In this document: positions 36,386 through 63,654 of the stretch, piece by piece
How positions within the stretch are numbered: position 1 is the first letter of the stretch
Layout of the letters: the number at the start of each line of letters is the position of its first letter
Assembly (NCBI GenBank): GCA_025765615.1
Contig: JAIVFJ010000016.1
Coordinates: 434,001-498,000, forward strand
DNA from: Zopfochytrium polystomum
Taxonomy: Eukaryota > Chytridiomycota > Chytridiomycetes > Chytridiales > Chytridiaceae
Direction: 5' to 3'
DNA length: 64,000 nt
Notes under the pieces: generated by a model
Told to the model about the DNA's origin: nothing
What the model saw: only the letters and a program-made list of their open reading frames with translations
Databases searched by the model: none
Translations under genes and position numbers: made by a program

Positions 36386-36476
36386 ATGATCGCGATCTCT
36401 TCATCCTCGTCTGCAACGAGGAGCTCGACACTGCCGGTGGAGGTGGCGCTGCTGAGGCAGCGGACGCTGGGCTGGT
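36386..36476 (+). pseudogene. Coding fragment cut by telomeric repeat
   Basis: An open frame NDRDLFILVCNEELDTAGGG followed by AAEAADAGLV runs directly into TTAGGGTTAGGG at 36477. It reads like real protein sequence that lost its 3' part where telomeric repeat was added. Confidence 0.4.
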
Positions 36477-36485
36477 GTTAGGGTT

Positions 36486-38096: not shown

Positions 38097-38108
38097 AGGG
38101 TTAGGGTT

Positions 38109-38746
38109 AAGTCGGCTGACCTGCACAGTGGGGGCCCGGGTTCGATTCCCGGAAGGACGAAACAGGGAACCACAACTGAAAACCACCCGATAAGGACACC
38201 CTGGCCACCGGCAAAGGATACCCCCTGGTGGTTAGTCTGGGCTAGGGATTGTTGGCGTACCTAGTCCAGGCGAGGTAGCACAAGTAACGGGAAGGTACCT
38301 TGGTGGTACTGGGCCGTCGCGGTTAAGTTGAGTGATGTCCCCAATGACGCTCCCCGAAAGGACAGCTAAGGAGACTATACTGACCGGCGTGACTGATGAG
38401 AGCGGCTACCGGTGTGCTACGCATGCTCAAGGTTTCACGGTGCCTAGAAAATAAGTGGCCCTCTGAAGTCGGGGCGAGGGTTCGACTCCCTCCTAGGTAC
38501 GGTGTTGACTTTATAGTTTTCAGCTGTTGTCTGGTTTAAGTTTGTTTCTACTGTTCTTTCTGCTTTCTTCTCTTCACCTTGGCCTCTTTGTCTTTCTTCT
38601 TCTTTGGCTTTCCCTCTCTCTCTCACATGTGCCCCCTCCGACCTCTTGGACTTTCTTTCTTCTCCTTCATATGCATGTACTTTTTTAACTTTCAAGCTGC
38701 AGATTCCTCACCTTCGGGTTGGAGCGAATAATACACTATTGAAAAG
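38109..38746 (+). mobile_element. Composite tRNA-derived SINE-like element, copy 1
   Basis: Starts, 5'-truncated after TTAGGG, inside a tRNA-like head with B box GGTTCGATTCC (about 38131). A body of about 280 bp and then a second tRNA-like unit follow (about 38438-38499: 7-bp acceptor stem GTGCCTA/TAGGTAC, B box GGTTCGACTCC). The last 240 bp, from about TTTATAGTTTTCAGCTG, match the 3' end of the LINE at 43500-43738. It ends GAAAAG before TTAGGG. Sharing the LINE tail suggests mobilisation by that LINE. Confidence 0.75.
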
Positions 38747-38756
38747 TTAGGGTTAG

Positions 38757-39002
38757 GCCCTAGCTTTTCAATAGTGTTTATTTGCTCCATTGGGGTTTCA
38801 GCCTTTTTCCTCTGTTCTTTCAGCTTTCTTCTCTTCACCTTGGCCTCTTTGTTTTTCTTCTTCTTTGGCTCTTTCTCTCTCATATGTGCCCCCTCCGATC
38901 TCTTGGACTTTCTTTCTTCTCCTTCATATGCATGTACTTTTTTAACTTTCAAGCTGCAGATTCCTCACCCTCGGGTTGGAGCGAATAATACACTATTGAA
39001 AA
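38757..39002 (+). mobile_element. Solo LINE-tail unit with inverted ends
   Basis: Only the 3' tail module is present. Its left end CTTTTCAATAGTGTTTATT is the inverse of its right end AATACACTATTGAAAAG, so it has terminal inverted repeats of about 20 bp. A second copy lies at 52261-52506 in minus orientation. Confidence 0.65.
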
Positions 39003-39013
39003 GTTAGGGTTAG

Positions 39014-39668
39014 GTGTGTAGGACAGTGGTTAAGTCGGCTGACCTGCACAGTGGGGGGCCCGGGTTCGATTCCCGGAAGGACGAAACAGGGAACCACAAC
39101 TGAAAACCACCCGATAAGGACACCCTGGCCACCGGCAAAGGATACCCCCTGGTGGTTAGTCTGGGCTAGGGATTGTTGGCGTACCTAGTCCAGGCGAGGT
39201 AGCACAAGTAACGGGAAGGTACCTTGGTGGTACTGGGCCGTCGCGGTTAAGTTGAGTGATGTCCCCAATGACGCTCCCCAAAAGGACAGCTAAGGAGACT
39301 ATACTGACCGGCGTGACTGATGAGAGCGGCTACCGGTGTGCTACGCATGCTCAAGGTTTCACGGTGCCTAGAAAATAAGTGGCCCTCTGAGGTCGGGGCG
39401 AGGGTTCGACTCCCTCCTAGGTACGGTGTTGACTTTATAGTTTTAAGCTGTTGTCTGGTTTAAGTTTGGTTCTACTGTTCTTTCAGACCTCTTCTCTTCA
39501 CCTTGGCCTCTTTGTTTTTCTTCTTCGTTGGCTTTCTCTCTCTCTCACATGTGCCCCCTCTGACCTCTTGGACTTTCTTTCTTTTCCTTCATATGCATGT
39601 ACTTTTTTAACTTTCAAGCTGCAGATTCCTCACCTTCGGGTTGGAGCGAATAATACACTATTGAAAAG
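39014..39668 (+). mobile_element. Composite tRNA-derived SINE-like element, copy 2
   Basis: As copy 1 but longer at the 5' end: TGTAGGACAGTGGTTAAG gives an A-box-like segment before the anticodon-like CTGCACA loop and the B box at about 39064. The 3' tRNA-like unit is at about 39362-39424 and the LINE-like tail ends at 39668. The first few bases of the tRNA acceptor stem are missing, replaced by telomeric repeat. Confidence 0.75.
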
Positions 39669-39678
39669 TTAGGGTTAG

Positions 39679-42600
39679 GTGGTGCCGACGCTATGCTTGA
39701 TGATTGATGGACTTAGATTTGGATTTGTGAACTTGAACTGCTCGCTCTCAGGACATGTCAAGAACATAGACCAAGCATTTTCAGATTTCCATTCAGACTA
39801 TATTTTGTTGGCGGACACTGGGATCACTGTGGTGGAGAATAACCCGTTGAGGGGATTGGTGGCTGACTCAAGGGGACCGGCGTTGGAGTTTGAGGAGCGG
39901 CTTGGGCATAAGGGCAAGAAGGGGGTGTCCATTCACAAGGGCAGGAGGATGGAGGAGGACCTGGTGGTTCAGACATTGGAGAAGGACACAAAGGGGGAGT
40001 GGGTCATTGCGAGGATGTCGGAGATTATCATGGCAGTGGTGTACTTTGCACCCTCGACGGATTTGGAGGTGCTTCAGTCATTCTCAGCAACAGCAGACAG
40101 GATTGCAGGGGCTAATCCCCAGGCACCCTTTCTGATCATTGGAGATTTCAACACTTCACTGCAGGAGTATGGCTGTGCCCACTCGCAGCCCAGGCTGAGG
40201 GTGGACTGGTGGCGCGCTTGGATTGATGGTTCAGGATGGAGCAGGGTTGAGCCAGTTCGGGGACAGTGGACCACTTTCTCACCTAGAATTGCTGGCCCTG
40301 TAGGCAGGGGAGTCACTGACTTGCTCCTTGTGAATCAAGCCGGACTTGGAGCTGTGCATAACTTGGTTGTCCATGACGAACCTGAGGACCACCTGGCTTT
40401 CACAGACCACAGGATGCTCACCTTTGAGCTCCGAACACACCTGACCATGAAACCACCCTTTGAGAGACTGAATGTGCGCAGGCTGATGCTGAGACAAGTC
40501 CAGTATGAGAAGAAACTTGCAGAGACCAGGAAGCCTTTGAGACAAGAGATTCACTCAGCATGGAAGACTGTGAATGCCGCTGCTGTGGCTCAGGAGGAGT
40601 GGTCCTTTGAGCGCAGACGTGCCTGTGCAGATTCTGTATCTCAGTTGGTGGTGAAGGGGCTTGTTGACACTGGTGTCCAAGTGGCTGGGAAGACCAAGTT
40701 TAGGGGTGGTGCAGGCGGCCCTGATGTCGAGGAGAAGCATTTGGAGGAGCTGAAGCGCCGGCGGGACCTGTCCCGCATGGAGGCTGAAGCCCACCCTGAT
40801 GATGATCCTGTCGGGCAGAAGGACGCCTGGGCAAAGTTCAGGCAGTGGAACCGGCTGACAAAGGTGGCCATCAAACGCTTCAGGAAGAGGGTGTACTCTG
40901 CCGTGCAGGATTTAGCTGTCAAGGACTTTGCTGCTGAAGCCAAGAGAATCAAGTGTCAGAAATCCAGAGTGGAGCGCACTCACTGTGCCCTTGACCCTCA
41001 GAAACTTCCAGACTATGCTGATCACTTTAGGGGAACCATTGGCCATGAGCCAACTGGTACTGATGCCGTCAACCAGGATGTCTTAGCTGCCTGCAGTGCT
41101 GAACGGCCCATGGTGCCTCTGAAGCTATCTGAAGTTGCCTGGATCAAGAAGAATGCTGTGGAAGAGGCTTGCAAGATTGCACCCCGGGGCAAAGCCCCAG
41201 GGGAGGATGCCCTGTTTGGCGAACTGGTGTGCATTGCCCCACATGTGGTGGCTCCTGTGTTGCAGAGATTCTTCCAGTTGCTTGCAGCCCTCCAGGTGGT
41301 TCCCACACTCTGGGGGATCGCGAATGTGGCCCTGGTGTACAAGAACAAGGGGGTGAACACTGATGTGGCAAACTACAGGCCAATCTCTCTGTGCTCAAGG
41401 CTGAGGCTGGTGTATGAGCGGGTGTTGGCCCCGCAGGTGGAAAGAGTGGTTGAAGGAATGATCCACCCCTCACAGGGTGGTTTCAGGCGCCACAGGTCCA
41501 CCATGGACCAGGCATTCACTCTGCATGAGCTTCAGCAAGAGTACCCTGATCTGACTGTGGTGTACTTGGACATCAAGGCTGCCTATGATTGCACAAACAG
41601 GAATTATGTGTGGGAGTCCATCTGGAATGCCAAGAATGACAAGAGTCCTGAGTTTACCAGGAACCAGTTGCTGCCGATTCTCAGATCCTTGTTTGACTTT
41701 AATGCGTGCCAACTTCTGGTCATGGGCCAGAAGTCTGATCAGATTCCAGTGACGCGGGGATTTCTACAGGGAACTGTGTTGTCCCCGATGCTGTTCAATG
41801 TTGCCATCAACTCGCTGCCTGAGGCGCTCTCCAGGGTGCCCCACAGCCAGTTGCAATGTGGTGGATTGAAGATCAACTCTCTGCTGTTTGCTGATGACTC
41901 TGCAGTGTTTGCGCGGGACAAGGCTGTCCTTCAGAATATGCTTGATGAAGTCCACAACTGGTCCCAGAGGCGGGGCATGACCTTTGCAGCACAGAAATGT
42001 GTTGTTGTTTCCAAGACACGAAACTTGAGATTGCAGATGAATGGGGTGGTGCTTCCCCAGGACAAGACCACACTGCAGTTGGGACTTGTGCGTGATTGCA
42101 ACGGAATCGACTTTGAGACGTCTCTGCAGATGAGGGTGAAGAAGACTGAGAAGATGCTTCAGTTTCTGAAATCTCGAGGGTTCAATGGCTGGGGATTCCG
42201 GCCTGTGAATGCGTACAGGGTGTACATGTGCTTTCTGCGGCCCATGCTGGAGTATGGGTTTGCGTTGAGGCCAAATTCAGAGGCCTTCTTGGCGCCTGCC
42301 CAGAAGGTCCAGGACATGTGTTTGCGCCAGGCTCTGTCTTTTGGGAAAACATCCAGCACTGTGGCAATGCATCTGATTTTTGGAGTGGTGCCAATGGTTG
42401 CACGCAACAAGATGTTGAACGCGAGATATTTCTACAGACTGCACCACACTCAGGACCAGAGAAACACCACTGCACACATGTACAGGCACATGGCGGAGCG
42501 GGGGCGGCGGGCTCCTGCAGGATCCCTCACCAGGCTCACTCTGTTCACACCGGATGTGGATCTATATTTTGGGTCAGTGCCACGGAAGGCCTTGGCACAG

Positions 42601-43738
42601 ATTCCGTTTGTCAGACACAGGACTTATCCGTATGACCTTGAAGTTACCAGATCTGAGCCCAAGAACATTGATGCTGTCGCTATGCAGAAGATGCACACTG
42701 TGTCACTTGAGAAGTATAAGGAAAAGGCCAACTTGACTGGGGTGGCAGCACCCCTGGTGGTCCCCCCTCACCGGGGGCCCTGCCAGGTGGTTCGTTCTGG
42801 TGCAATGTTTAACAGGAGGTGGTTGAGATGCCTTGTGGCATGGATGGGTGGCCGTGTGGCTTATCACCAGCAGTGCAAGAAGTGTGATGCTGAGCTGGAC
42901 AGGAACCATGCCTTGGAGTGTTCAGGTGTGCGCCGCCTCCTGGAGGCGGACCACCCTGAGTGCGTCCCAAGCCTGGAGCAGGGGAGGGGGAACATCACAG
43001 TGCTGGATCTGCTGCTGCAGACTCTGACTTTTTGGGCACCATACACAGCCAATGATGCAGATAAGATCCCTCAGGAGACGAGGGTTGCTTCAAAGAAACT
43101 GGGGATGAAGCTTGCTAGGCTGATTGCAAAGATTCGAGTGGAATGCGCTGGAATGAGGGACTTTGTGGATGCTTCAGAGACCACAGCAGAACAGGAGGCA
43201 GATTATTTGATGGAAGCAGGGACAGTGGATGATAGGAGGGCGGATTTGAGGACTCGCATGCAGATGGCGCAGGTGCGGCGGCAAGCTAGGGAAGCCCTGC
43301 GTGCACACTGGGATCCAGTGCGCAACAAGGGGTTTAGGGAATCGAGGAACAGGTGGCTGGCTAAGGAGACTCAGGGAGTGACGGGAAAGCCAGACAGATC
43401 TGGGTGGGTTGACTCTGATACAGAGAGTGGAGCTTCAGTGGGAGGTGGATGAGTGTCTGTTTCTGTTGCCTCATCATTTGTTTTCTATTTGTTTTTTGTT
43501 GTGTTGTGTTCATACCTTTAAGCTGTTATCTGGTCTAAGTTTGTTTCTACTGTTCTTTCAGATCTCTTCTCTTCACCTTGGCCTCTTTGTTTTTCTTCTT
43601 CTTTGGCTTTCTCTCTCTCTCACATGTGCCCCCTCTGACCTCTTGGACCTTTCTTCCTTCACACGCATGTACTTTTTTAACTTTCAAGCTGCAGATTCCT
43701 CACCCTCGGGTTGGAGCGAATAATACACTATTGAAAAG
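39679..43738 (+). mobile_element. Telomeric LINE copy L1 (subfamily 1)
   Basis: Longest LINE copy, lying between TTAGGG units. The coding frame is open from the very first codons, so the 5' end may be slightly truncated and no separate ORF1 is present. The 3' tail (about 285 bp) is rich in CTTTG/TCTTC and ends TACACTATTGAAAAG. Confidence 0.9.
39700..43452 (+). CDS. LINE polyprotein: APE endonuclease, reverse transcriptase, CCHC finger
   Basis: About 1250 aa from the first ATG. The N-terminal APE-type endonuclease shows LRFGFVNLNCSLSGH, IIGDFN (about residue 155), RGVTDLLLVN and FTDHRMLTFEL. The usual QETH motif reads LADTGI, so the catalytic Glu seems replaced by Asp. The reverse transcriptase begins about residue 500 (KAPGEDALFGEL) and has NYRPISLCSRLRLVYERVL, GGFRRHRSTMDQ, YLDIKAAYD, RGFLQGTVLSPMLFN and the catalytic LLFADDSAVF (about 736). 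A C-terminal zinc knuckle CKKCDAELDRNHALEC lies at about 1064. It copies its RNA into nicked chromosomal DNA; targeting to telomeric repeat is inferred from the insertion sites. Clade not assigned; a Tad1-like fungal group is possible. Confidence 0.9.
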   Translation: MIDGLRFGFVNLNCSLSGHVKNIDQAFSDFHSDYILLADTGITVVENNPLRGLVADSRGPALEFEERLGHKGKKGVSIHKGRRMEEDLVVQTLEKDTKGEWVIARMSEIIMAVVYFAPSTDLEVLQSFSATADRIAGANPQAPFLIIGDFNTSLQEYGCAHSQPRLRVDWWRAWIDGSGWSRVEPVRGQWTTFSPRIAGPVGRGVTDLLLVNQAGLGAVHNLVVHDEPEDHLAFTDHRMLTFELRTHLTMKPPFERLNVRRLMLRQVQYEKKLAETRKPLRQEIHSAWKTVNAAAVAQEEWSFERRRACADSVSQLVVKGLVDTGVQVAGKTKFRGGAGGPDVEEKHLEELKRRRDLSRMEAEAHPDDDPVGQKDAWAKFRQWNRLTKVAIKRFRKRVYSAVQDLAVKDFAAEAKRIKCQKSRVERTHCALDPQKLPDYADHFRGTIGHEPTGTDAVNQDVLAACSAERPMVPLKLSEVAWIKKNAVEEACKIAPRGKAPGEDALFGELVCIAPHVVAPVLQRFFQLLAALQVVPTLWGIANVALVYKNKGVNTDVANYRPISLCSRLRLVYERVLAPQVERVVEGMIHPSQGGFRRHRSTMDQAFTLHELQQEYPDLTVVYLDIKAAYDCTNRNYVWESIWNAKNDKSPEFTRNQLLPILRSLFDFNACQLLVMGQKSDQIPVTRGFLQGTVLSPMLFNVAINSLPEALSRVPHSQLQCGGLKINSLLFADDSAVFARDKAVLQNMLDEVHNWSQRRGMTFAAQKCVVVSKTRNLRLQMNGVVLPQDKTTLQLGLVRDCNGIDFETSLQMRVKKTEKMLQFLKSRGFNGWGFRPVNAYRVYMCFLRPMLEYGFALRPNSEAFLAPAQKVQDMCLRQALSFGKTSSTVAMHLIFGVVPMVARNKMLNARYFYRLHHTQDQRNTTAHMYRHMAERGRRAPAGSLTRLTLFTPDVDLYFGSVPRKALAQIPFVRHRTYPYDLEVTRSEPKNIDAVAMQKMHTVSLEKYKEKANLTGVAAPLVVPPHRGPCQVVRSGAMFNRRWLRCLVAWMGGRVAYHQQCKKCDAELDRNHALECSGVRRLLEADHPECVPSLEQGRGNITVLDLLLQTLTFWAPYTANDADKIPQETRVASKKLGMKLARLIAKIRVECAGMRDFVDASETTAEQEADYLMEAGTVDDRRADLRTRMQMAQVRRQAREALRAHWDPVRNKGFRESRNRWLAKETQGVTGKPDRSGWVDSDTESGASVGGG

Positions 43739-43741
43739 TTA

Positions 43742-43860
43742 GGGTTAGGGAGGAGCCCAGTAGCTCAGTTGGTTAACACCTCTGAGTTTGCTGGTGAGGG
43801 GCGCCGGTTTCAGGGTTAGGGTTAGGGTTAGGGCAAGGGTCAAGGTTAGGGTCGGGGGGC
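43742..43860 (+). repeat. tRNA-like fragment fused to telomeric repeat
   Basis: After TTAGGGTTAGGG comes GGAGCCCAGTAGCTCAGTTG with a perfect A box, then an anticodon-arm-like stretch with CCTC...GAGG pairing. The T arm is cut at GGTTTCAGGG, which merges into four TTAGGG units and degenerate variants (AAGGGTCAAGG). Confidence 0.65.
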
Positions 43861-44491
43861 GACAGGACGAAGAACTTGAAGGGGACCTCGACCCGACGCA
43901 CGTGGGCGACGACGCTGTGTGACCGGTTGAAGGCTCAATGGCAGGGTGGGGCCAGAGCCTAGACTTGCCAGACTAGGTGGTGGTGTGGTGGAGGAGAAGG
44001 GGCTTGCTTGCTTAAGAGAGGGAGGCCCCCCCTATGAGGGTGACGGGGGCCTCGAGTGTTGGGCTTGTTGCTTGGTGTTTGAACTAGAGAAGTTTCTTGA
44101 CCAGAGGGACTTTATTCAGCGTGAGCTTTCGGCTGTTTTGGCAGCCTCTTCAGACGCTTGAGTGAACAAAGAAAAACCAAGGGTTAAGAAACTTCAAACC
44201 AAAGGAACCAACAAGGGTGATTGCAACACTTGGGGTTTGAAAGCAAGCAAGGGATAGGGGATCAAGGGTAGGTTGCACTCACACACACACACACACACAC
44301 AAAGAAAGATTAAAAGACAGCATCATACCTCAAACCAAATGTCAAGGGCACAGGGGACACTTTTGGGTTTGGAAGAGTTTCTGGCAAGGAGAGGGGTGAA
44401 AGGGGGGGGCCCTGCCAGGCTTTATATACCCCCAGCCCAAGGGGGTCAAGCCATGGAAGGAAATGGAATGAATGAAACAGCAAAAAAGGAA
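43861..44491. other. Unassigned subtelomeric sequence
   Basis: No gene recognised. Contains a CA run (44279-44301) and a TTTATATACCCC motif at about 44422. It lies between telomeric tracts and may be another element whose ends I cannot define. Confidence 0.4.
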
Positions 44492-45060
44492 AAAGTGATT
44501 CCAAAGGTGATACCAAAGGTGATTCCAAAGGAGGGGTGATTCCAAAGGTGATTCCAAAGGAAAGGTGATTCCAAAGGTGATACCAAAGGTGATTCCAAAG
44601 GAGAAGTGATTCCAAAGGTGATTCCAAAGGAGAGGTGATTCCAAAGGTGATTCCAATGGTGATTCCAATGGAAGGGTGATTCCAAAGGTGATTCCAAAGG
44701 AGAGGTGATTCCAATGGTGATTCCAATGGTGATTCCAAAGGAGAGGTGATTCCAAAGGTGATTCCAAAGGTGATTCCAGTGGTGATTCCAATGGAAGGGT
44801 GATTCCAAAGGTGATTCCAATGGTGATTCCAATGGTGATTCCAATGGAAAGGTGATTCCAAAGGTGATTCCAGTGGTGATTCCAATGGTGATTCCAATGG
44901 AAGGGTGATTCCAAAGGTGATTCCAAAGGTGATTCCAGTGGTGATTCCAGTGGTGATTCCAATGGTGATTCCAAAGGGAAGGGTGATTCCAATGGTGATT
45001 CCAGTGGTGATTCCAGTGGTGATTCCAAAGGTGATTCCAAAGATTCCAAAGAGATTCCAA
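44492..45060. repeat. 12-bp minisatellite GGTGATTCCAAW
   Basis: Almost uninterrupted array of 12-bp units, GGTGATTCCAAA, GGTGATTCCAAT and GGTGATTCCAGT variants, with occasional GGA-extended units (AAAGGAGAGGTGATTCC). Because 12 is a multiple of three it gives long open frames in several phases that are not genes. Confidence 0.97.
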
Positions 45061-45139
45061 CCAAAAGAGGAAGAGATTCACCACAAAGGACCCCTCTGGG
45101 CGTCTGACACTGCCCAAAAAGGCAACTTCCATAAAAGGA

Positions 45140-45235
45140 AGGTGGTCACATGACCGCCATGTGACCAGTCACGTGACCCCCATGTGACCAGATCACGTGA
45201 TCCCCACGTGACCCAGATCACGTGACCCCCCTTCT
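45140..45235. repeat. Clustered CACGTG/CATGTG palindromes
   Basis: Repeated CATGTGAC and ATCACGTGAY units within about 95 bp, including several perfect TCACGTGA palindromes. CACGTG is the classical bHLH (Pho4/Cbf1-type) site; a regulatory role here is inference. Confidence 0.7.
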
Positions 45236-45249
45236 AACGTGGCGCGAGG

Positions 45250-45325
45250 CGGACGGTTAGAGGTTAGGGCGGTTAGGGTCAGGGTGGTTAGGGTCAGGGC
45301 CTTAGGGTTAGGGTTTAGGGTTAGG
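45250..45325 (+). repeat. Degenerate TTAGGG tract
   Basis: GGTTAGGG, TTAGGGTCAGGG and three clean TTAGGG units, all on the plus strand. This is the last TTAGGG-oriented tract before the Penelope-like element. Confidence 0.9.
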
Positions 45326-47738
45326 GCCAGTGGCGAAGGCGTCTAGAAAGAGGGGGTGTGGTGTGGAAGGGGCTGGAGGTTGAAAGGGAGCCAAGAGAGA
45401 GAGTGCGGTCGCAAAGTCCTTGGGATTGGTCCGTTCGAATTAGCAAAGAAATGCTGGATCGTCTTCAAGAAGGCCGATTGCTCTTGCGGCTGTCTTTGCG
45501 CTTTTTGGCAAAAGGCTGCCACTGACGCCAGGGATCTCGGTAAGGATCAGGGGGAGGACCCTTTGGCTTTGGTTTAGGGTCGAAGGGCGTCGGAGGCGGT
45601 GGTCTTGGAGGATCAAAGAGGTCCGGTGGCGGGCTCTGGGGCGTCACCGGGACTTTGGGGTCTCGAAGCTTTGTGAGGATCGAGCCGACGGACGGGTTGC
45701 TGCGTAGCGCAAGGACCATTCTTGGCGGATTTCTGTCCCAAATCTCATGGACTTGGTCCTCGTGGGTGTTGAGAACGGGTCCGATCTGAAGGGCCGAGAC
45801 TTGGGGGGCGTGCCGGACGACAAAGGGGAGAACCTTGTCTTTGGGGCCGTCGGCGGGCGGGTGGAGCCACCGAGGCCTGTCTGCATAGCTGACTGAAGCG
45901 AAGATTGGCTCCAGGAACTTGCGTGGATAGCCCCGAGCTTGAAGTCGTTGGCGGAAAAGAGCTCGGGTGGCCAGGAAGGTTGATTCGGACGTTGAGTTGC
46001 GCACATACCGAATCAGTTCGCCGCGGATGAAGCCCCTCTTGAGGCTCGAGGGGTGGAACGAGGCCGGGCCAAGGTAGGCGTAGGTGTTGAGCGGTTTTTG
46101 GTAGGTGCTGAACACGAGGGAGGCTTCATCGCTGTCGTCGCTGGTGCGGCGTAAGTTAATGTCGAGGTCGAGGAAGGCGGCATGGGTGGTGCTGCGGTTG
46201 ACTGTGAGTCGAAGTACACCGGGCCGTGAGGACGTGAGCAAGCCGTGAAGAAAGTCCACGTCGTCCGGTCCGCAGCAGAGGACCATGAAGAGGTCGTCAA
46301 TGTACCTTCCGTACAGGGGGCAACGGATGCGTTTGTGCTGGTTGCTGATGATCCTGTAGACCCCGGGGACGGATTCAAAGACGGCGAACCCGTAGAGGTT
46401 TGCAATGACAACGGCCATGTTGGTGCCCATGGCCATGCCACCGCGCTGCCGGAAGACCGTTCCCTGAAAGCTGAAGGCGTTGGCGTCAAAAACCCACTGT
46501 ATCAACTGAAGGATCTCGGGGCGGATGATGTCTCTGCCGTGATCACGGAGCCAGGAGTTGAGGTTGTTGTTGAGAGATCGAATGACGTCTGCCACATGCA
46601 TGTTGCCGTAAAAGTTTTCCACATCCATGGTGACGAGCAGGCAGTTTTCTGCTGGGAGAACTGGCACTTGGGTCTCGGCGATCTGAACGAGATGTCGAGA
46701 GTCTTTCAGGATGAACGGGAGGCTGTCCACAATGGGCTGGAGCACCGCGCAGATAATGCGCGAAGCGTTGGTGGTGATCCAGTTTGTCGAAGCGACGATG
46801 GGCCGAAGGGGGACAGCCAGGCCTGGACCGAGGTTGAGCATGTCGACAGGTTTGAGCTTGTGTATCTTGGGGAGGCAGTAAAAGGTCGGCACGGTGAACG
46901 ACCTGAAGCCGTCGACAGAGTCTTGCAGAAGTTCCAGTTGCTGCCGAGTGAACCGGGAGCCATACTCCCTGACGAACTTGGTGACGAACGCCAGGTGTTT
47001 CCGGAAGAAGGCGGGAAGATCTGCTGGAGCCAGAACGGTGTAGTTGTCGCTCTGGAGGTGCTCGGTGACGAGTCTGTTGTAGTCGTCAGTGTCCAGGACG
47101 ACCAAGCCGAGGTTCTTGTCTGCGGCTCGGAAGGTGAGGTTGCGCTGCTTGGCCAGCTTGTGGGCTAGGCGGAGCAGGGACCGACCGCGTTGCTGTTTCT
47201 TGTACAGTGGCGAAGCCTTGTCCAGGGGCTTGCTTTTTTGACAGTCGTCAAGCCACTTGAAGCTGCCGGTCAGGGCGCGGCGGATGGAGCGCGCGATTTC
47301 AAAGACGGGGACAGGTACGTTGTCCGGGGGCGGGTAGGACTTGGGCGCGGTGAACAGGCGAGGGTCAAAGTCCGGGTCGTCGGGCGTGTTCTGGTGACGG
47401 AACTGGACCGACAGACGGTGGGTGAACGAGTGAAGGGCTTCATCGAGCTCGTCGTAGGTGAGCGGACGAGCGAAAGGGATGTGCTTGGAGCCGTGGGTGA
47501 GAAGCCTTTGAGTCTGGGGCGAGAGGGTGGCTGAAGAAAGATTGAAGAAGAGAGGTTTCTTTGTAGGAGGAGAAGAGGAAGAAGTTGAATCCACAGGGCC
47601 GGCGGTCTTGGTTGAGAGACGATATGAGGGACGTGTTCTGCAAGAGACTGAGATGCAGATGTCGCGATGCTGCTGCAGCCACCTCATTCTTGCCGGGTGG
47701 ATTTTCTTCCTCTTTCTCCGCCGGATCCTTCGCCGCCT
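45326..47738 (-). mobile_element. Penelope-like retroelement without endonuclease
   Basis: Its 3' end lies against the TTAGGG tract, so in its own direction it is followed by CCCTAA. That is the arrangement expected if the 3' overhang of a telomere primed reverse transcription. Its 5' end abuts a truncated Y element at about 47739. No GIY-YIG endonuclease part is found. Confidence 0.8.
45465..47687 (-). CDS. Penelope-like reverse transcriptase, EN-minus
   Basis: About 740 aa from the ATG at 47687; the frame is open to an ATG at 47756, but those extra codons come from the abutting Y element. PLE hallmarks in order: AADKNLGLVVLD, FYCLPKIHKLKP, RPIVASTNWITTN, VTMDVENFYGNM, RGGMAMGTNMAVVIANLYG, catalytic YGRYIDDLF (about 46300) and AAFLDLDINLR. 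The thumb-like segment follows (STYQKPLNTYAYLGPASFHP, KRGFIRGELIRYVR). The C-terminus is Pro-rich and basic and lacks the GIY-YIG domain. EN-minus PLEs are known at telomeres of fungi and rotifers (Coprina, Athena). Frame intact, so possibly recently active. Confidence 0.92.
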   Translation of the reverse strand: MRWLQQHRDICISVSCRTRPSYRLSTKTAGPVDSTSSSSPPTKKPLFFNLSSATLSPQTQRLLTHGSKHIPFARPLTYDELDEALHSFTHRLSVQFRHQNTPDDPDFDPRLFTAPKSYPPPDNVPVPVFEIARSIRRALTGSFKWLDDCQKSKPLDKASPLYKKQQRGRSLLRLAHKLAKQRNLTFRAADKNLGLVVLDTDDYNRLVTEHLQSDNYTVLAPADLPAFFRKHLAFVTKFVREYGSRFTRQQLELLQDSVDGFRSFTVPTFYCLPKIHKLKPVDMLNLGPGLAVPLRPIVASTNWITTNASRIICAVLQPIVDSLPFILKDSRHLVQIAETQVPVLPAENCLLVTMDVENFYGNMHVADVIRSLNNNLNSWLRDHGRDIIRPEILQLIQWVFDANAFSFQGTVFRQRGGMAMGTNMAVVIANLYGFAVFESVPGVYRIISNQHKRIRCPLYGRYIDDLFMVLCCGPDDVDFLHGLLTSSRPGVLRLTVNRSTTHAAFLDLDINLRRTSDDSDEASLVFSTYQKPLNTYAYLGPASFHPSSLKRGFIRGELIRYVRNSTSESTFLATRALFRQRLQARGYPRKFLEPIFASVSYADRPRWLHPPADGPKDKVLPFVVRHAPQVSALQIGPVLNTHEDQVHEIWDRNPPRMVLALRSNPSVGSILTKLRDPKVPVTPQSPPPDLFDPPRPPPPTPFDPKPKPKGPPPDPYRDPWRQWQPFAKKRKDSRKSNRPS

Positions 47739-47937
47739 GAGACAGGGGGATCTCATCCCACGCTTCAGATCGTCGTTCCCGACGCCACGATCACTCGCGG
47801 CGCTGTGGATCGTGCTGCGCGCCGGCAGCGATCCACTCCACCCGCCACGCCGTCGAAGGCAGCGGCGTCGGCGGCGGCGGCGGCCTCGCGGCCGCAGCCA
47901 CCCGCCGCCCCCAAAAATTGCAAAGTTTTTCCTCCCC
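47739..47937 (-). mobile_element. Truncated Y element (5' part only)
   Basis: Identical or nearly so to 52058-52250. It ends at its 5' boundary (CAAAGTTTTTCCTCC before CCCTAA) but is cut on the left at AGGGGGATCTCAT, where the Penelope-like element begins. This is the proposed fusion point of two chromosome ends. Confidence 0.8.
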
Positions 47938-47946
47938 TAACCCTAA

Positions 47947-50722
47947 CTTTTCAACGGGATTTATTCGCTCCAACCCCCCCCGAGGGAAAGGGTGAGGAAT
48001 CTGCAACTTTGAAAGTTAAAAAGTGCATACATATGAAATAGGAGAAACATGTCCAGAGGCAAGAAAGAGCGCCAAGTAGAGAATCAAAAGGCAAAAGAGA
48101 GAAAAACAAAGAACAGCAACTAGGTCAAAAAGGAAAAGAGGAGAGGATCCACAGAGGTGAGGTGAAATTTAACAACAAGAAAACAAATAGAAAACAAATG
48201 AGGTTCGAAGGACTGCACCTGAAACACTGCACAAACTGTCACCCAGCTCCAGCCTCCTCCTCTGAATCCGAGTCCACATGCCCATTGCCGTCCACTGTCC
48301 CCTCAACACCCTCCGTTTCCTTCTTCTTCCACTTCTCCCTTGACTCCCGCCACTGTTTGTTCCGTACTGGATCGTAGGTGGTGATGATGACCGACCTTGC
48401 AAGCTTGCGCACCCTGGCTGCTGCCATCCGTTCCTGAATGCTCATATCCTGTCGGTCCACACGACCTGCCTCCACCACGACCTCTGCCTCCTCTGCTGCT
48501 GTTGTCTCTGAAGCATCAGTGAAATTCGCAAGCCCTCCACACTCAATGCGCATCTGCATGATCATCCTGGCCAGCTTCATTCCCATCTTCTTTGATGTAA
48601 TGCGAGTCTCCTTAGAGATCTTGTCCTCAGCTTTGGCACTGTAGGGGGCCCAAAAGACCAGCGACCTTAGGCCCAAATCCACTGCTGAAATGTTCAAATC
48701 CTGTTGCTCTGCAGTGGGAATCAACTCAGGATGCAGCCTCTCCAGCCTGTCCTTAACACCTGAACACTCCAAAACGTGCCTCCTAGTGCATTTCTCTGTG
48801 CAGTCAGCCCTTGCACACTGTTGGTGAAATGCTACCATCCCAGCCATCCACATCAGCAGGTGTCTGAGCCACTTCCTGTTAAATGCCGCACCAGATCGAA
48901 TAACTTGGCATGGCCCCATGTGTGAAGGCACCTCCAAAGCCTGAGCCACCCCGGTGGGGGAGGATTTCTGCTGGCACCTCACCAAAGCCCGCTTGTGCAT
49001 TGCCAGCATGTCTGCAGCCTCAATGTTCTTTGTTCTCACCACTGGCAACTCAATGTCATAGGCCTTGGTGGTGGGAACCACAAGTGGCACCTCCACAAAG
49101 GAAGGCCGCCTCACAGAGTCCAAAAAATCCTGAATACCCGTATAGTCAAGCGAGAACTTTGTCAAGGACTGTCCCACAGAGGCCCCTGAAGCAATCTTTT
49201 CCACCATGTGCCTGTACATCTGAGCCGTTGTGTTGCGAGCATCCTGAATGTGGTGCAGTCTGAAAAAGTATCTGGCGTTCAGCATCTTGTTCCTGGCTGC
49301 CACAGGGACCACTCCAAACATCAGATGCAGGGCCGCCCCTGAGGAGGTCTTCCCCAGTGACAGCGCCTGCCGCAGGCATTTATCCTGCAATTTCTGCGCA
49401 TCCTTCAGCTGTGTGTGGGTCAAGGGGCGCAGTGCAAACCCATACTCCATCATTGGTCTCAGGAAACACATGTAAACCCTGTAAGAGCTCACGGGCCTGA
49501 AGCCCCAGCCATTGAAACCCCGAGCAGCCAAAAAGGCCAGCATCTTTTCTGTTTTCCTCAGTCTCATGGCCAGTGAGGCCTCAAAGTCAATACCCCTGCA
49601 GGTGCGCACAAGACCCAACTGGGTAGTAGACTCCTCCTGGGGAATCTCCACTCCATTCATCTTCAACTTCAAATTCTTCTTGGCTGAAACTGCAACACAT
49701 TTCTTGGCAGCAAATGTCATCCCCCGCTTAAGGGACCACTCATGCACCTTGTCTAGCATTCTCTGAAGTACTGTCGCATCCTTTGCAAAGACAGAGGAGT
49801 CATCAGCGAAGAGCAGCGAGTTTAGGGAGGTTGCATTAAATGTCAGCATGTGGTCCCTGAAAGACATGGCCAATGTCTGAGGCAAAGAGTTGATGGCAAC
49901 ATTGAACAGCATGGGTGACAGAACTGTGCCTTGGAGAAATCCTCTTGTCACTTGAATCTGAGCAGACTTGGTCCCAAGTACCAGCAGCTGGCATGCATTG
50001 AAATCAAACAAAGATCTGAGGATCGGCAGCAGTTGAGTCCTTGTAAAGTCACGACTCTTGTCATTCTTGGCAAACCAGATGGAGTCCCACACCAGACTCC
50101 TGTTTGTGCAGTCATACGCAGCCTTAATGTCCAAATACACCACATGCATCTGGGGGTTCAGCTGCTGAAGCTCATGCAAAGTGTAGGCCTGGTCCATGGT
50201 GGACCGCTTTCTTCTGAAACCTCCCTGCGCCCTATGGATCATCCCTTCAACCACGCGCTCAACCTGGGGTGCAATCACTCGCTCAAACACAAGTCGCATC
50301 CTAGAGCACAAGGAGATGGGTCTGTAGTTTGCAACATCGCTGTTGAGCCCCTTGTTCTTGTAGACCAAGGCCACATTGGCCACAGACCACAGAGAAGGAA
50401 CCACATGAAGAGAGGCCACAAGCTGAAAGAATCTGTGCAAGACTGCAGCAACCAAGTGCGGAGCAATTGAGACCAACTCCCCAAAAAGCATGTCTTCTCC
50501 AGGGGCTTTGCCCCTGGGGGCATTCTTGCAGGCTTCTTCAACATGAACTTTCTTAATCCACGAGACTTCAGACTGCTTCAGAGGGACTTTGTTCCCAGTA
50601 ACCGCTGATTCTTCCAGAGCCACGGCGTCAGGGACATCAGTTCCAGTTGGATCATGCCCTATGGTTGTGCGGAAATGATCTTCGTAATGGCCCATCTTCT
50701 GGGGGTCAAGGGCACACTGGCT
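47947..50722 (-). mobile_element. Telomeric LINE copy L2 (subfamily 2), 5'-truncated
   Basis: The 3' tail ends AATAAATCCCGTTGAAAAG, different from subfamily 1. The 5' end is lost at CCAGTGTGCCCTTGACCCCC and replaced by telomeric repeat. Confidence 0.9.
48239..50695 (-). CDS. LINE reverse transcriptase and zinc knuckle, 5'-truncated but open (L2)
   Basis: 818 aa without endonuclease. It has GKAPGEDMLFGELVSIAP, NYRPISLCSRMRLVFERVI, GGFRRKRSTMDQAYTLHE, YLDIKAAYDCTNRSLVW, RGFLQGTVLSPMLFNVAINS, LLFADDSSVF and a C-terminal CARADCTEKCTRRHVLEC finger. It is clearly related to L1 but a distinct subfamily. The open frame suggests recent insertion; without the endonuclease it cannot move alone. Confidence 0.88.
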   Translation of the reverse strand: MGHYEDHFRTTIGHDPTGTDVPDAVALEESAVTGNKVPLKQSEVSWIKKVHVEEACKNAPRGKAPGEDMLFGELVSIAPHLVAAVLHRFFQLVASLHVVPSLWSVANVALVYKNKGLNSDVANYRPISLCSRMRLVFERVIAPQVERVVEGMIHRAQGGFRRKRSTMDQAYTLHELQQLNPQMHVVYLDIKAAYDCTNRSLVWDSIWFAKNDKSRDFTRTQLLPILRSLFDFNACQLLVLGTKSAQIQVTRGFLQGTVLSPMLFNVAINSLPQTLAMSFRDHMLTFNATSLNSLLFADDSSVFAKDATVLQRMLDKVHEWSLKRGMTFAAKKCVAVSAKKNLKLKMNGVEIPQEESTTQLGLVRTCRGIDFEASLAMRLRKTEKMLAFLAARGFNGWGFRPVSSYRVYMCFLRPMMEYGFALRPLTHTQLKDAQKLQDKCLRQALSLGKTSSGAALHLMFGVVPVAARNKMLNARYFFRLHHIQDARNTTAQMYRHMVEKIASGASVGQSLTKFSLDYTGIQDFLDSVRRPSFVEVPLVVPTTKAYDIELPVVRTKNIEAADMLAMHKRALVRCQQKSSPTGVAQALEVPSHMGPCQVIRSGAAFNRKWLRHLLMWMAGMVAFHQQCARADCTEKCTRRHVLECSGVKDRLERLHPELIPTAEQQDLNISAVDLGLRSLVFWAPYSAKAEDKISKETRITSKKMGMKLARMIMQMRIECGGLANFTDASETTAAEEAEVVVEAGRVDRQDMSIQERMAAARVRKLARSVIITTYDPVRNKQWRESREKWKKKETEGVEGTVDGNGHVDSDSEEEAGAG

Positions 50723-50734
50723 CCTAACCCTAAC

Positions 50735-52250
50735 TCCTCAAGAAATTTATTATCTACTACAACTGTTTTGGTGATCGAATCCACCCTCACCGGCCCAATG
50801 ATGAAGTGGAAACAACAGTTAGAGACCTGCTTCTAGGCCCGAATACGCCGAGTGCGGGCGTGAGGGAAAAAAGGGCGAACCTTGAAAAAACCCACACTGA
50901 CACCCAACGAAGAACAACCACAAACGGAAACTATGAGGCCCGACCCCCCCCCCCGAAAGGGGGGGGGGTGGGAATGCGTAGGGCCCCCCTCATCGAGGGG
51001 GGCCAAATCGAAGAAAAAAAAGCGTAAATCGAAGAATAAGCACAGTACGAAGAGAAAGCGGAGATCGAAAAATAGAGCAAGGTTCGAAGAAGAGGCGAAA
51101 ATCGAAGAAAAAGCGTAAAAGCGAAAACATATGCGGGGGCCCCCGGACTAATCAACAGGGGCAGGTCGAAGTGATAGCGAAATAAAAAGAGGCGAAAATC
51201 AGAGGGTTATCCCTGGAAAAAATCAACAGGGATAAGCTAGGCATTAAAACAGAACGAAAACAAGAAGAACGGAGACCCGTTACACAGCGATAACCGACAT
51301 CCAATGGGATGGCGCCTCGAGGCGCCGCCCCGATCCGAAGGGTGGCGCCCTGAGGCGCCTCCCCGACCGAGGGGGCGGCGCCGCGAGGCGCCGCTCCGAT
51401 CCGAAGGGTGGCGCCCCGAGGCGCCGCCCCAGCCGAGGGGCGGCGCCGCGAGGCGCCGCCCCAATCCGAAGGGCGGCGCCGCGAGGCACCGCCCAAGCCG
51501 AAGGGTGGCGCCCCAAGGCGCCGACCAAGCCGAAGGGCGGCGCCGCGAGGCGCCGCCTCAATCCGAAGAGTGGCGCCGACAGGCGCCGCCGACCGAGGAG
51601 GGGGCGCCGCAAGGCGCCGCCAATATGCTGAATCGAAGAATACCGTGACAAGGCAGGAAAAAGGATCGGGAGGGGGGACTCAACCTCCTCTCGATACTCC
51701 CCGCGAAGTATTAGATCGGAGAGTTGCGCGTGAGGCGGGGGGCAGCGGGGTGAGCCGCCGCCCCGAGCATGACGAGGGGGGGGGGGGGGGGGGCGCAAGG
51801 CCCCGACGACGGGGGCAAGGGAGGAACATCGAAATACGCCCAAACGAGCAACACTCGGCTTGCCAACCCTCTTACCTTCGCATCCCAGTACTGCTAATTT
51901 CCTGGGCCGCCGTCGGGGGGAAGCGCTTCCCATGCGAGAGGCCTTAGGGCGAGCTACGGTGACGAAGGGTGCGCCGACCCTGGGTCGCCGAACCGAGGGG
52001 GGGATCGCGGGACAGCGATCTGAAAGCGTCCCGTTACTGCTATTTTCACAGGCCAGCCAGGGGGATCTCATCCCACGCTTCAGATCGTCGTTCCCGACGC
52101 CACGATCACTCGCGGCGCTGTGGATCGTGCTGCGCGCCGGCAGCGATCCACTCCACCCGCCACGCCGTCGAAGGCAGCGGCGTCGGCGGCGGCGGCGGCC
52201 TCGCGGCCGCAGCCACCCGCCGCCCCCAAAAACTGCAAAGTTTTTCCTCC
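50735..52250 (-). mobile_element. Y-type telomeric element, minus copy 1
   Basis: Complete between CCCTAA tracts: TCCTCAAGAAATTTATT at the left (its 3' end) and GCAAAGTTTTTCCTCC at the right (its 5' end). It includes the GGCGCC minisatellite (51308-51625) and a G run (51778-51793). Y copies differ strongly in their middle part, while both ends are conserved. Confidence 0.82.
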
Positions 52251-52260
52251 CTAACCCTAA

Positions 52261-52506
52261 CTTTTCAATAGTGTATTATTCGCTCCAACCCGAGGGTGAG
52301 GAATCTGCAGCTTGAAAGTTAAAAAAGTACATGCATATGAAGGAGAAGAAAGAAAGTCCAAGAGATCGGAGGGGGCACATATGAGAGAGAAAGAGCCAAA
52401 GAAGAAGAAAAACAAAGAGGCCAAGGTGAAGAGAAGAAAGCTGAAAGAACAGAGGAAAAAGGCTGAAACCCCAATGGAGCAAATAAACACTATTGAAAAG
52501 CTAGGG
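52261..52506 (-). mobile_element. Solo LINE-tail unit with inverted ends, copy 2
   Basis: Near-identical reverse-complement counterpart of 38757-39002: CTTTTCAATAGTGTATTATT at the left and AATAAACACTATTGAAAAG at the right. Confidence 0.65.
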
Positions 52507-52518
52507 CCTAACCCTAAC

Positions 52519-53879
52519 TCCTCAAGAAATTTATTATCTACTACAACTGTTTTGGTGATCGAATCCACCCTCACCGGCCCAATGATGAAGTGGAAACAAC
52601 AGTTAGAGACCTGCATCTAGGCCCGAATACGCCGAGTGCGGGCGTGAGGGAAAAAAGGGCGAACCTTGAAAAAACCCACACTAACACCCAACGAAGAACA
52701 ACCAGCAACGGAAACTATGAGGCCCAACCCCCCCCCCCCAAGTGGGGGGGGGGGGGTGGGAATGCGTAGGGCCCCCCCTCAACGGGGGGGGCTGGATCGA
52801 AGAAAGAAAAGCGTAAATCGAAGAATAAGGCACAAAGCGGCGAAGAAGGAAAAGCGTAAATCGAAGGATAAGGCACAGTTCGAAGAAAAAGCGAAGATAC
52901 AGCGTATACCCCCCAACCGAAAAGAGGGGGGAAAAACGAAGAGGAATGCATAAGCGCGACCCCCGACGGAGAAAATGGGGGAAAGGAACGAAGGAAAGCA
53001 AGAAAACAATCAACTCATGCGTGCGCCCCTGGACCTATCAACAGGGGCAAGTTCGAAGGAAAAACACAACAAAAACGCAACGAAAAGGAAAATCGGCGTA
53101 CCAGGGCGCCGACGAAACCGAAGGGATGGGGGCAGCGCAACCGGCACCGCCCCCGCAACCGAAGCAAGAGAGGCAGCGCAGCCGGCGCCGCCCCTGAAGC
53201 CAACGTGGAGGCAGCGTAGCCAACGCCGCCCCCGCAAACCGAAGCGAAGGCCGATCGAAATGGCAGCGTCGCGGGGCGCCAAGCCAGAGCGAGGGAAAAT
53301 CGTGACAAGGAAGAAAAAAGGATCGGAGAGGCTGGTCCCGACACCGATGACCGTTACTCGACTTGCGTGGATAGAGCGGATAGCGGCAATGTCCACCGCT
53401 GCGACGAGTGATGATAGCGATAGTGACGAACGTGGGAGGCGCCTAGGCGCCTCGTGCGACGGGGAAATAGGGGGAACGTCGCATACTCCCAAACCGTGCA
53501 ATAGAGCGGTTGCCATGCGCTTACCACCGCATCGAGGGAATCGCTTCCCGTGCGGATGGCCGTGCGCCGCCTGAGGAGGCAGAGGCGTGAAGCCTCCACT
53601 GCTCAACTCAGCCGCCCAGGGGGATCGCGACATCCAGCATCCAACTGCATCCCGCTACTGCTATTTTCACGGGCCTGCCGGGGGGATCGCATCCCATGCA
53701 GAGGAACTACCAACAGTCGACGCCGCAATCGCTTGCGACGCAGCACGGCCCGCCACACGCCGGTGGGAAAGGCCCTGCACCACCCGAGGCTGTCGTCGAA
53801 GACAGCCTCGTCGGCGGAAGCGGCGGCCTTGCAGCCGCCACAAACCGCCACCCCCAAAAATTGCAAAGTTTTTCCCCCC
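52519..53879 (-). mobile_element. Y-type telomeric element, minus copy 2
   Basis: Same ends as the other Y copies. The middle has CGAAGAAAAAGCG-type repeats (about 52795-52900) and a degenerate GCGCC-rich tract (about 53100-53290). No coding region recognised. Confidence 0.8.
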
Positions 53880-53888
53880 TAACCCTAA

Positions 53889-56078
53889 CTTTTCAACGGG
53901 ATTTATTCGCTCCAACCCCCCCCCGAGGGAGAGGGTGAGGAATCTGCAACTTTGAAAGTTAAAAAGTGCATACATATGAAATAGGAGAAACATGTCCAGA
54001 GGCAAGAAAGAGGTGCCAGGTAGAGAATCAAAAGGCAGAAGAGAAAAACAAAGGACAGCAACGAGGTCAAAAAGAAAACAGAGGAGAGGATCCACAGAGG
54101 TGAATGAAATTAAACAACAAGAAAACAAATAGATAACAAATGAGGTTCGAGGGACTGCACCTGAAACACTGCACAAACTGTCACCCAGCTCCGGCCTCCT
54201 CCTCTGAATCAGAGTCCACATGCCCATTGCCGTCCACTGTCCCCTCAACACCCTCCGTTTCCTTCTTCTTCCACTTCTCCCTTGACTCCCGCCACTGTTT
54301 GTTCCGTACTGGATCGTAGGTGGTGATGATGACCGACCTTGCAAGCTTGCGCACCCTGGCTGCTGCCATCCGTTCCTGAATGCTCATATCCTGTCGGTCC
54401 ACACGACCTGCCTCCACCACGACCTCTGCCTCCTCTGCTGCTGTTGTCTCTGAAGCATCAGTGAAATTCGCAAGTCCTCCACACTCAATGCGCATCTGCA
54501 TGATCATTCTGGCCAGCTTCATTCCCATCTTCTTTGAGGCAATGCGAGTCTCCTTAGAGATCTTGTCCTCAGCTTTGGCACTGTAGGGCGCCCAAAAGAC
54601 CAGCGACCTTAGGCCCAAATCCACTGCTGAAATGTTCAAATCCTGTTGCTCTGCAGTGGGAATCAACTCAGGATGCAGCCTCTCCAGCCTGCCCTTAACC
54701 CCTGAACACTCCAAAACATGCCTCCTAGTGCACTTCTCTGCACAGTCAGCCCTCACACACTGTTGGTGAAATGCTACCATCCCAGCCATCCACATCAGCA
54801 GGTGTCTGAGCCACTTCCTGTTAAATGCCGCACCAGATCGAATAACTTGGCATGGCCCCATGTGTGAAGGTACCTCCAAAGCCTGAGCCACCCCTGTGGG
54901 GGAGGATTTCTTCTGGCACCTCACCAGAGCCCGCTTGTGCATCGACAGCATGTCTGCAGCCTCAATGTTCTTTGTTCTCACCACTGGCAACTCAATGTCA
55001 TAGGCCTTGGTTGTGGGGACCACAAGTGGCAACTCCACAAAGGAGGGCCGCCTCACCGAGTTCAAGAAATCCTGAATATCTGTATAGTCAAGCGAAAACT
55101 TTGTCAAGGACTGTCCCACAGAGGCCCCTGAAGCAATCTTTTCCACCATGTGCCTGTACATCTGAGCCGTTGTGTTGCGAGCATCCTGAATGTGGTGCAG
55201 TCTGAAAAAGTATCTGGCATTCAGCATCTTGTTCCTGGCTGCCACGGGGACCACTCCAAACATGAGATGCAGGGCCGCCCCTGAGGAGGTCTTCCCCAGT
55301 GACAGCGCCTGCCGCAGGCACTTGTCCTGCAATTTCTGCGCATCCTTCAGCTGTGTGTGGGTCAAGGGGCGCAGTGCAAACCCATACTCCATCATTGGTC
55401 TCAGAAAACACATGTAAACCCTGTAAGAGCTCACGGGCCTGAAGCCCCAGCCATTGAAGCCCCGAGCAGCCAAAAAGGCCAGCATCTTTTCTGTTTTCCT
55501 CAGTCTCATGGCCAGCGAAGCCTCAAAGTCAATACCCCTGCAGTTGCGCACAAGACCCAACTGGGTAGTAGACTCCTCCTGGGGAATCTCCACTCCATTC
55601 ATCTTCAACTTCAAATTCTTCTTGGCTGAAACTGCAACACATTTCTTGGCAGCAAATGTCATCCCCCGCTTAAGGGACCACTCATGCACCTTGTCTAGCA
55701 TTCTCTGAAGTACTGTCGCATCCTTTGCAAAGACAGAGGAGTCATCAGCGAAGAGCAGCGAGTTTAGGGAGGTTGCATTAAATGTCAGCATGTGGTCCCT
55801 GAAAGACATGGCCAATGTCTGAGGCAAAGAGTTGATGGCAACATTGAACAGCATGGGTGACAGAACTGTGCCTTGGAGAAATCCTCTTGTCACTTGAATC
55901 TGAGCAGACTTGGTCCCAAGTACCAGCAGCTGGCATGCATTGAAATCAAACAAAGATCTGAGGATCGGCAGCAGTTGAGTCCTTGTAAAGTCACGACTCT
56001 TGTCATTCTTGGCAAACCAGATGGAGTCCCACACCAGACTCCTGTTTGTGCAGTCATACGCAGCCTTAATGTCCAAAT
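53889..56078 (-). mobile_element. Telomeric LINE copy L3 (subfamily 2), 5'-truncated
   Basis: Nearly identical to L2 over its length. Its frame (631 codons, 56076-54181) starts inside the reverse transcriptase at YLDIKAAYDCTN and runs to the same stop as L2, keeping FADD and the zinc knuckle. It has lost the endonuclease and the first RT motifs at the telomeric junction. Confidence 0.88.
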
Positions 56079-56091
56079 AACCTAACCCTAA

Positions 56092-59000: not shown

Positions 59001-59217
59001 AACTTTGCCCAGGCGTCCTTCTGCCCAACAGGATCATCATCAGGGTGGGCTTCAGCCTCCATGCGGGACAGGTCCCGCCGGCGCTTCAGCTCCTCCAAAT
59101 GCTTCTCCTCGACATCAGGGCCGCCTGCACCACCCCTAAACTTGGTCTTCCCAGCCACTTGGACTCCAGTGTCCACAAGCCACTTCACCACCAACTGAGA
59201 GACAGAGTCTGCACAGC
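56092..59217 (-). mobile_element. Telomeric LINE copy L4 (subfamily 1), truncated and frameshifted
   Basis: Very close to L1. It lacks the endonuclease: the left-over frame begins CADSVSQLVVKWLVD at the telomeric junction. One C is missing from the CCC run near 58372, so the reading frame splits into 59287-58286 and 58337-56388. Otherwise it keeps RT motifs and the zinc knuckle. Not functional. Confidence 0.87.
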
Positions 59218-59227
59218 CTAACCCTAA

Positions 59228-60314: not shown

Positions 60315-60448
60315 CCTAACCCTAACCCTGGTTTTGCAAACCCCCAGTGGTCCAGTCCATTGATACTTGCGCGAAGTAGAGCTTTTTGCGGCTTTTTCAT
60401 GCTGCTTAGTGTCGCTCGAATTGCATATTTGACAAGGCCTGAACTCAT
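59519..60448 (-). other. Chimeric open frame: transposase piece, translated telomeric repeat, LINE tail
   Basis: 309 codons read without a stop. The first part, MSSGLVKYAIRATLSSM to GLDHWGFAKP, is Plavaka-like transposase. GLGLG is encoded by the telomeric repeat, and TKNIEAAD onward is LINE L5. Whether it is expressed is unknown. Confidence 0.75.
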
Positions 60449-60893: not shown

Positions 60894-60994
60894 CTGACTT
60901 GTCTTGTTGTCATTGGTATCATTGGTATCATTGTATTACTAATTGCTCTTTCTGGAACTTTCTTGGAGTCTTGACAAGGAACACTCTCAAAAGG

Positions 60995-63604: not shown

Positions 63605-63654
<50 letters not shown>

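Follow-up and report, generated by a model that had tools for sequence, protein, structure and literature searches.

The window, i.e., the whole 64-kb stretch analyzed here (C16:434001-498000, with C numbers denoting contigs of the assembly, which totals 80.16 Mb in 761 contigs), probably represents two former chromosome ends that were capped by retroelements, broken, and then joined end to end, a reading that we favor with moderate confidence on the basis of sequence comparisons. Two retroelement arrays face each other in it, the left one running from 36478 to 47743 and the right one from 47743 to 60328 (Table 1). We favor the fusion because the telomeric repeats are of opposed polarity (9/9 places on the left versus 8/8 on the right), the outer boundaries of the arrays look healed, a Penelope-like element (PLE) serves as a mark of a chromosome end, and the Y element at the join (Y0) has lost its 3′ part. 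End-to-end fusion was also the simplest reading in the original prediction, and it gains support from the terminal, outward-facing PLEs elsewhere in the genome (9/10), the start of the arrays on telomere repeats, and the one-base join, as well as from the long homologues of the two flanks, which come from separate contigs (left, C226, C25 and C175; right, C62). No description of this locus was found in those parts of the literature that the search covered.

Table 1. Features of the two arrays, the join and the adjoining arms, in window coordinates.
Feature	Position	Strand	Remarks
Left arm, last bases	36420..36477	+	C175 and C25 continue beyond with different sequence common to both
Telomere repeats, proximal boundary of left array	36478..36489	+	Putative healed end; C226 has them too
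Y element	36490..38106	+	~1.6 kb; 3′ tail GTTAGGGTTAGG
Three element B 3′-end fragments	38107..39679	+	Each ends in TTAGGGTTAGG
Element B, non-LTR retrotransposon	39680..43750	+	RVT_1 5.8e-26; 3′ tail toward putative former end
Degenerate telomere tract under PLE 3′ end	43812..43853	+	Longer than the boundary tracts
PLE	43854..47743	-	3′ 3890 bases of ~5364-base unit; 5′ part missing
Telomere-like block inside PLE	45271..45326	+	~29 perfect repeats start here on C63
PLE reverse transcriptase ORF	45465..47738	-	RYIDD; no GIY-YIG domain seen
Join	47743..47743	.	Single base (C) common to PLE and Y
Y fragment Y0	47743..47934	-	Keeps common Y 5′ start, lacks 3′ part; same as C20 copy up to join
Element A1	47936..50719	-	RVT_1 3.5e-25; 5′ truncated; 3′ tail TTAGGGTTAGG at 47936
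Y1	50723..52249	-	Y element
Element B 3′-end fragment	52250..52525	-	
Y2	52507..53877	-	Y element
Element A2	53878..56079	-	
Element B (right array)	56081..59216	-	
Element A3	59217..60314	-	5′ truncated
Telomere repeats, proximal boundary of right array	60315..60328	-	Putative healed end
Right arm	60329..64000	.	Three pieces, 88-95%, to C62:104948-108038 (-); C62 runs on past 108038

The polarity of TTAGGGTTAGG shows zero exceptions within the 64-kb window: it is on the plus strand at all nine places in the left array (36478, 38095, 38747, 39004, 39669, 43739, 43816, 45302 and 45315) and on the minus strand at all eight in the right array (47936, 50723, 52250, 52507, 53878, 56081, 59217 and 60315). 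The exact double repeat TTAGGGTTAGGG has 10 matches in the window as compared to 0 in 100 shuffles. For the single hexamers TTAGGG/CCCTAA, the left array yields 25/0 and the right one 3/13, with three in the latter oriented oppositely to the rest. The predicted distribution, with plus-strand TTAGGG on the left and CCCTAA on the right, is thus borne out; however, the view of these sites as telomeric junctions stands only as regards their opposed polarity, since at most of the junctions TTAGGG belongs to the fixed 3′ tail of an element and is no telomere remnant. The 3′ ends of the A, B and Y elements all read GTTAGGGTTAGG, as do those of the lone interior A copies on C22 and C37, and hence most of the apparent telomeric junctions in the window are attributed to element tails. 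Real telomere tracts are present at 36478-36489 and 60315-60328, with no element tail before either, and at 43812-43853; telomeric sequence accordingly faces telomeric sequence across the join in the manner of an end-to-end fusion, with most of the repeats being element tails.

Beyond its reverse transcriptase, the element B copy of the left array displays a weak match to Exo_endo_phos (1.3e-4; 22.3 bits versus a curated cut-off of 24.5), and a Zopfochytrium polystomum relative matches it at 88% over 17% of B. Many of the A and B copies elsewhere are in open frames, the longest being of 1296 codons. Pfam gave no match for Y in the single ORF examined. Between the tail of element B and the telomere tract of the left array, the short segment 43751-43811 has what we take to be the look of the start of a tRNA; ARAGORN and Rfam returned no tRNA at these positions.

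Homologous contigs fix the proximal boundaries of both arrays. For the left one, C175 and C25 follow the window as far as 36478; beyond it, the two agree mutually (97%) for ~3.0 kb, whereas the window and C226 turn to TTAGGGTTAGGG at this point. C226 is nearly identical to the window on this side (100% as rounded over 4.8 kb at 26.5-31.3 kb and 98.7% at 36.4-40.45 kb), and it ends inside the left array at 40450 of the window, before reaching the PLE. On the right, similarity to C62 extends to 60329, where C62 runs into other sequence and the window has GGGTTAGGGTTAGG. The continuations of C175/C25 and of C62 beyond these boundaries were not found in the window, the only past-boundary match being 241 bases of C175 at 73% to 31.2-31.4 kb, i.e., on the left flank itself. 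The insertion of the entire array into one intact locus is thereby ruled out within the window, as neither flank's continuation is present on the other side. Because telomere repeats sit exactly where the homologues run on, and because PLEs face outward at ends elsewhere, we take both flanks to be former chromosome ends as judged from sequence, this being firmer for the left than for the right.

Outside the arrays, the sequence inspected beyond the window comprises C16:498001-503000 and the two contig ends; the former, which takes the right arm further out, is repetitive and uninformative with respect to synteny. The right flank carries a repeat of about 358 bases (~60757-61114) that recurs at 98-100% on at least 27 other contigs among the matches scored. 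It is also the sole window match within the 4 kb fetched from C75, a 278 kb contig with a short interior TTAGGG run on the plus strand (C75:17425-17454). The left part of the window contains two inverted duplications, one between 2-2948 and 21345-24329 (94%) and the other between 7158-8514 and 14296-15658 (87%). The latter corresponds to a pair of MFS genes, fucose-permease-like going by the names of their relatives, many of the named ones among the best 120 being bacterial; an MFS transporter in the window is 69% identical to a protein of Cladochytrium replicatum. Together with the Z. polystomum relative of element B, this protein indicates a chytrid as the source.

The join itself was originally placed at 47739, and base-exact comparison moves it to 47743. 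Here, a PLE lacking ~1.5 kb of its 5′ side abuts a Y element lacking its 3′ part. All 17 of the other fetched PLE loci that span the corresponding point read on as PLE past GAGAC, whereas the window turns into Y. Conversely, the best relative of the Y portion, on C20, is identical to Y0 over 194 bases as far as the join, beyond which it goes on with Y sequence. The earlier claim of a Y element cut in the middle holds, for 47743-47934 has the common Y start without the remainder. As 5′-truncating retrotransposition cannot yield a copy that keeps its 5′ start and loses its 3′ part, a break is needed at Y0, and a chain of insertions without any break is ruled out on the same grounds. Compared with ten other copies, the PLE portion shows 2 substitutions over its 3890 bases, along with 1-6 gap positions for nine of them, which points to a young join; five further copies are 97.3-99.8% alike over shorter alignments. 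No second copy of the whole B-to-PLE join of the left end was seen among the matches listed (~40 candidates scored), and likewise none of the other listed matches (~40 candidates scored) spans the A1-to-Y0 join on the right at near identity. There is thus no unfused comparison for either end, as neither join recurs among these matches.

The structure of the join also bears on the possibility that a chimeric read or a wrong graph join linked two true chromosome ends during assembly, an alternative already named in the original prediction, which we regard as rather unlikely, though with a weight that cannot be neglected. Against it, the join lies outside any shared repeat, with the two sides sharing one base; the arms do not fold back on each other, their longest shared block being 96.5% over 3.1 kb (with a 276-base piece at 99.3%); and, at a 60-base threshold, nothing but simple repeats is common to the outer flanks in the window. 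However, a chimeric read, unlike a repeat-driven misjoin, could still give a one-base join, and both sides do look like true ends, where a false end-to-end join can survive since a chromosome end has no competing correct extension. Moreover, the PLE is nearly identical in many copies, which tangles the assembly graph; the assembly is fragmented into 761 contigs in 80 Mb, and the near-identical C226 stops within the same array. A fold-back or sister-chromatid fusion is ruled out by the lack of anything other than simple repeats in common between the outer flanks of the arms in the window.

To place the elements in their genomic context, we counted a cluster as terminal if it faces a contig end within 20 kb on a contig of at least 60 kb; the genome searches scored the best 40-54 candidates of the first look, and the counts are therefore lower bounds. 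PLE clusters face an end in 9/10 cases without the window and 9/11 with it, the two non-terminal ones being that of the window and a partial relic (80-87%) on C194. The corresponding figures are 16/22 and 16/24 for A/B clusters and 10/20 and 10/22 for Y clusters. The A/B tally takes in 55 of 56 matches, omitting a 61% fragment on C190; that of the PLEs 23 plus 6 matches, omitting two further C194 pieces; and that of Y 40 of 115 matches plus one, with the omitted ones being on contigs already in the tally. Outside the tally are Y copies on C17 (terminal) and C107 (interior), as well as C13, C55, C68, C203, C216, C710 and C758, which include contigs with A tails. In the stretches seen, interior elements comprise the single A copies on C22 and C37 and partial arrays on C52, C81 and C102, and the latter three have no facing partner in the stretches fetched.

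Thus, element polarity alone proves no end, given that A/B and Y clusters are less strictly terminal and that interior arrays exist. This makes for a serious rival in which an internal locus that already had a relic of a left-facing array received the left end, i.e., a translocation and not a telomere-to-telomere fusion, although we consider such an event improbable here. Interior arrays do exist, such as the left-facing one on C102 and the partial ones on C52 and C81; half (10/20) of the Y clusters outside the window fail the 20-kb test for terminal position, and MoTeR relics have been internalized in a like manner in the parts of the published account available to us (PMC7367193). However, telomere repeats at the base of the right array directly abut truncated unique sequence, which marks an end at the time when the array began, and long same-facing arrays are also found at telomere-bearing contig ends, e.g., on C253 and C190.

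On the six contigs with both a telomere run and an A/B match (C20, C190, C253, C579, C590 and C739), the A/B coding strand runs toward the telomere; in the same genome, the 3′ ends of A and B thus point to the telomere and PLEs are oriented the other way. Triple TTAGGG matches in the whole assembly number 336 forward versus 2 reverse (40 versus 2 when counted about once per run), with the telomere runs being nearly all at right contig ends, and the contigs seem to have been oriented that way. C173, C383 and C18 have outward-facing elements near both ends of each contig and may represent near-complete small chromosomes. These three would also be compatible with a very improbable variant of the fusion in which both of the joined ends came from one chromosome, giving a ring and no dicentric, as the structure of the join would then be identical. 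Neither 2.5 kb end of C16 carries a telomere run, and the two ends do not overlap. They share no sequence in 2.5 kb each, which rules out a circular contig; C16 does not close on itself, which counts against a ring, albeit not against one longer than the contig.

Returning to the favored fusion of two former ends, one end marker is the PLE. Its Penelope-like identity, which had been predicted earlier, is confirmed by a minus-strand ORF with the RYIDD motif and other invariant residues, and by a PLE-type reverse transcriptase core with 89 relatives at E ≤ 0.001 among 8000 scored (best 7e-99); its Pfam RVT_1 match is below the cut-off of that model, and a search of PDB sequences gave no useful match. 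In the alignment, both the window ORF and a 923-aa ORF on C63 end without the C-terminal extension carried by P0014, P0018, P0022 and P0073, and PF01541 (GIY-YIG) is precomputed for P0018, P0022 and P0073. That the 3′ end of the PLE sits on TTAGGG is likewise upheld by the plus-strand tract at 43812-43853, with the correction that the minus-strand 3′ end is at 43854 and not at 45326, as 45271-45326 is an internal telomere-like block.

The same configuration recurs in other PLE copies: out of 20 left flanks, six start on telomere-like tracts (C448, C400, C18, C63, C87 and C14), 11 belong to inner tandem copies with one TTAGG between them, and three fall short of the 3′ end. Hence, apart from the window, six of the 17 flanks reaching the 3′ end, on six contigs, are on telomere repeats. 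Ahead of the tract, C448, C400, C18 and C87 display four different sequences, while the stretch printed for C63 and C14 is mostly within the tract. C726, C448 and C400 contain near-identical head-to-tail PLE units with a spacing of 5363-5367 bases and one TTAGG between units; the spacing is 5291-5294 on C140. A block comprising B, TTAGGG and PLE recurs as a whole within C44:323565-353324, at an offset of exactly 21036 bases. On C63, ~29 perfect repeats that run up to the contig end begin in the telomere-like block of a partial terminal PLE, this being the one contig for which a telomere starting at the internal block is seen. On C400 and C448, the contig stops after three to four repeats of this block, which would fit a telomere, and on C190 a terminal PLE is cut ~100 bases before the block and capped by repeats. 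The block lies ~1.4 kb from the PLE 3′ end and may act as a stop for reverse transcription or as a seed for telomerase.

These features resemble those of the endonuclease-deficient PLEs (Athena and fungal relatives), which, in the portions of the source consulted, prime at exposed chromosome ends and then receive a telomere on the truncated 5′ end (PMC3846280). The likeness extends to a reverse transcriptase without GIY-YIG, location at chromosome ends, a 3′ end on telomere repeats, and a telomere added to the truncated 5′ side, as on C63 and C190. The present case differs from what is described in those portions in that the host is a chytrid, the ~5364 bp units are in head-to-tail tandem with one TTAGG between them, and two arms meet head to head at one of the copies. 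Among non-LTR elements, the parts consulted of the account of Magnaporthe oryzae MoTeRs describe comparable telomeric head-to-tail arrays with TTAGGG between elements, in which breaks are healed by a new telomere or by non-homologous end-joining, with truncated copies becoming internal relics (PMC7367193). However, MoTeRs have the 5′ end toward the chromosome end, while A and B are oriented in the opposite way; further, the neighbors of the MoTeR relics described there are internal, duplicated or single-copy DNA, and two relics have TTAGGG where the 5′ end is truncated, whereas the join partner here is another, facing array of the same kind. The word “fusion” is absent from the main text of that paper. 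The FoTeRs of Fusarium oxysporum are also fungal telomere-associated non-LTR elements, but they have a REL endonuclease and an outward 5′ end, and the sections consulted report none detected away from telomeres (PMC12857005), as against the interior copies of A. The end-to-end or translocation-type fusions of Cryptococcus and Kwoniella, for which non-homologous or microhomology joining has been considered, offer another parallel, but the sections consulted describe their junctions as free of interstitial telomeric repeats (PMC11185503), while here both arms keep facing repeats and arrays.

Taken in order, the favored history would begin with the loss of the distal part of each arm (at 36478 and 60329), where comparison within the assembly finds telomere repeats. 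Elements A, B and Y would then have piled up on each end with their TTAGGGTTAGG-tailed 3′ ends outward, as the structure of the arrays suggests, and a PLE would have been copied onto the telomere tract of the left end (43812-43853) in the manner published for endonuclease-deficient PLEs. Finally, the ends may have been broken or uncapped inside the PLE and inside Y0 and sealed by non-homologous end-joining at the one shared base, 47743. A more speculative and rather doubtful version has the PLE itself as the bridge: cDNA primed from an uncapped telomere 3′ end would have stopped early and, rather than receiving a cap from telomerase, been ligated to a second chromosome at a broken end. Retention of a centromere on each arm would make the product dicentric, so that one centromere would have to be silenced or lost.

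The window thus offers a candidate, located to the base, for a recent fusion between chromosome ends in an early-diverging phylum of fungi, and both candidate ends carry a mark of healing along with a retroelement array. If this is correct, it would mean that when retroelement-capped ends fail, the broken elements can be joined to each other and not only to internal DNA. Other PLE-capped ends in the same genome stayed capped, and comparison with these makes the question testable.
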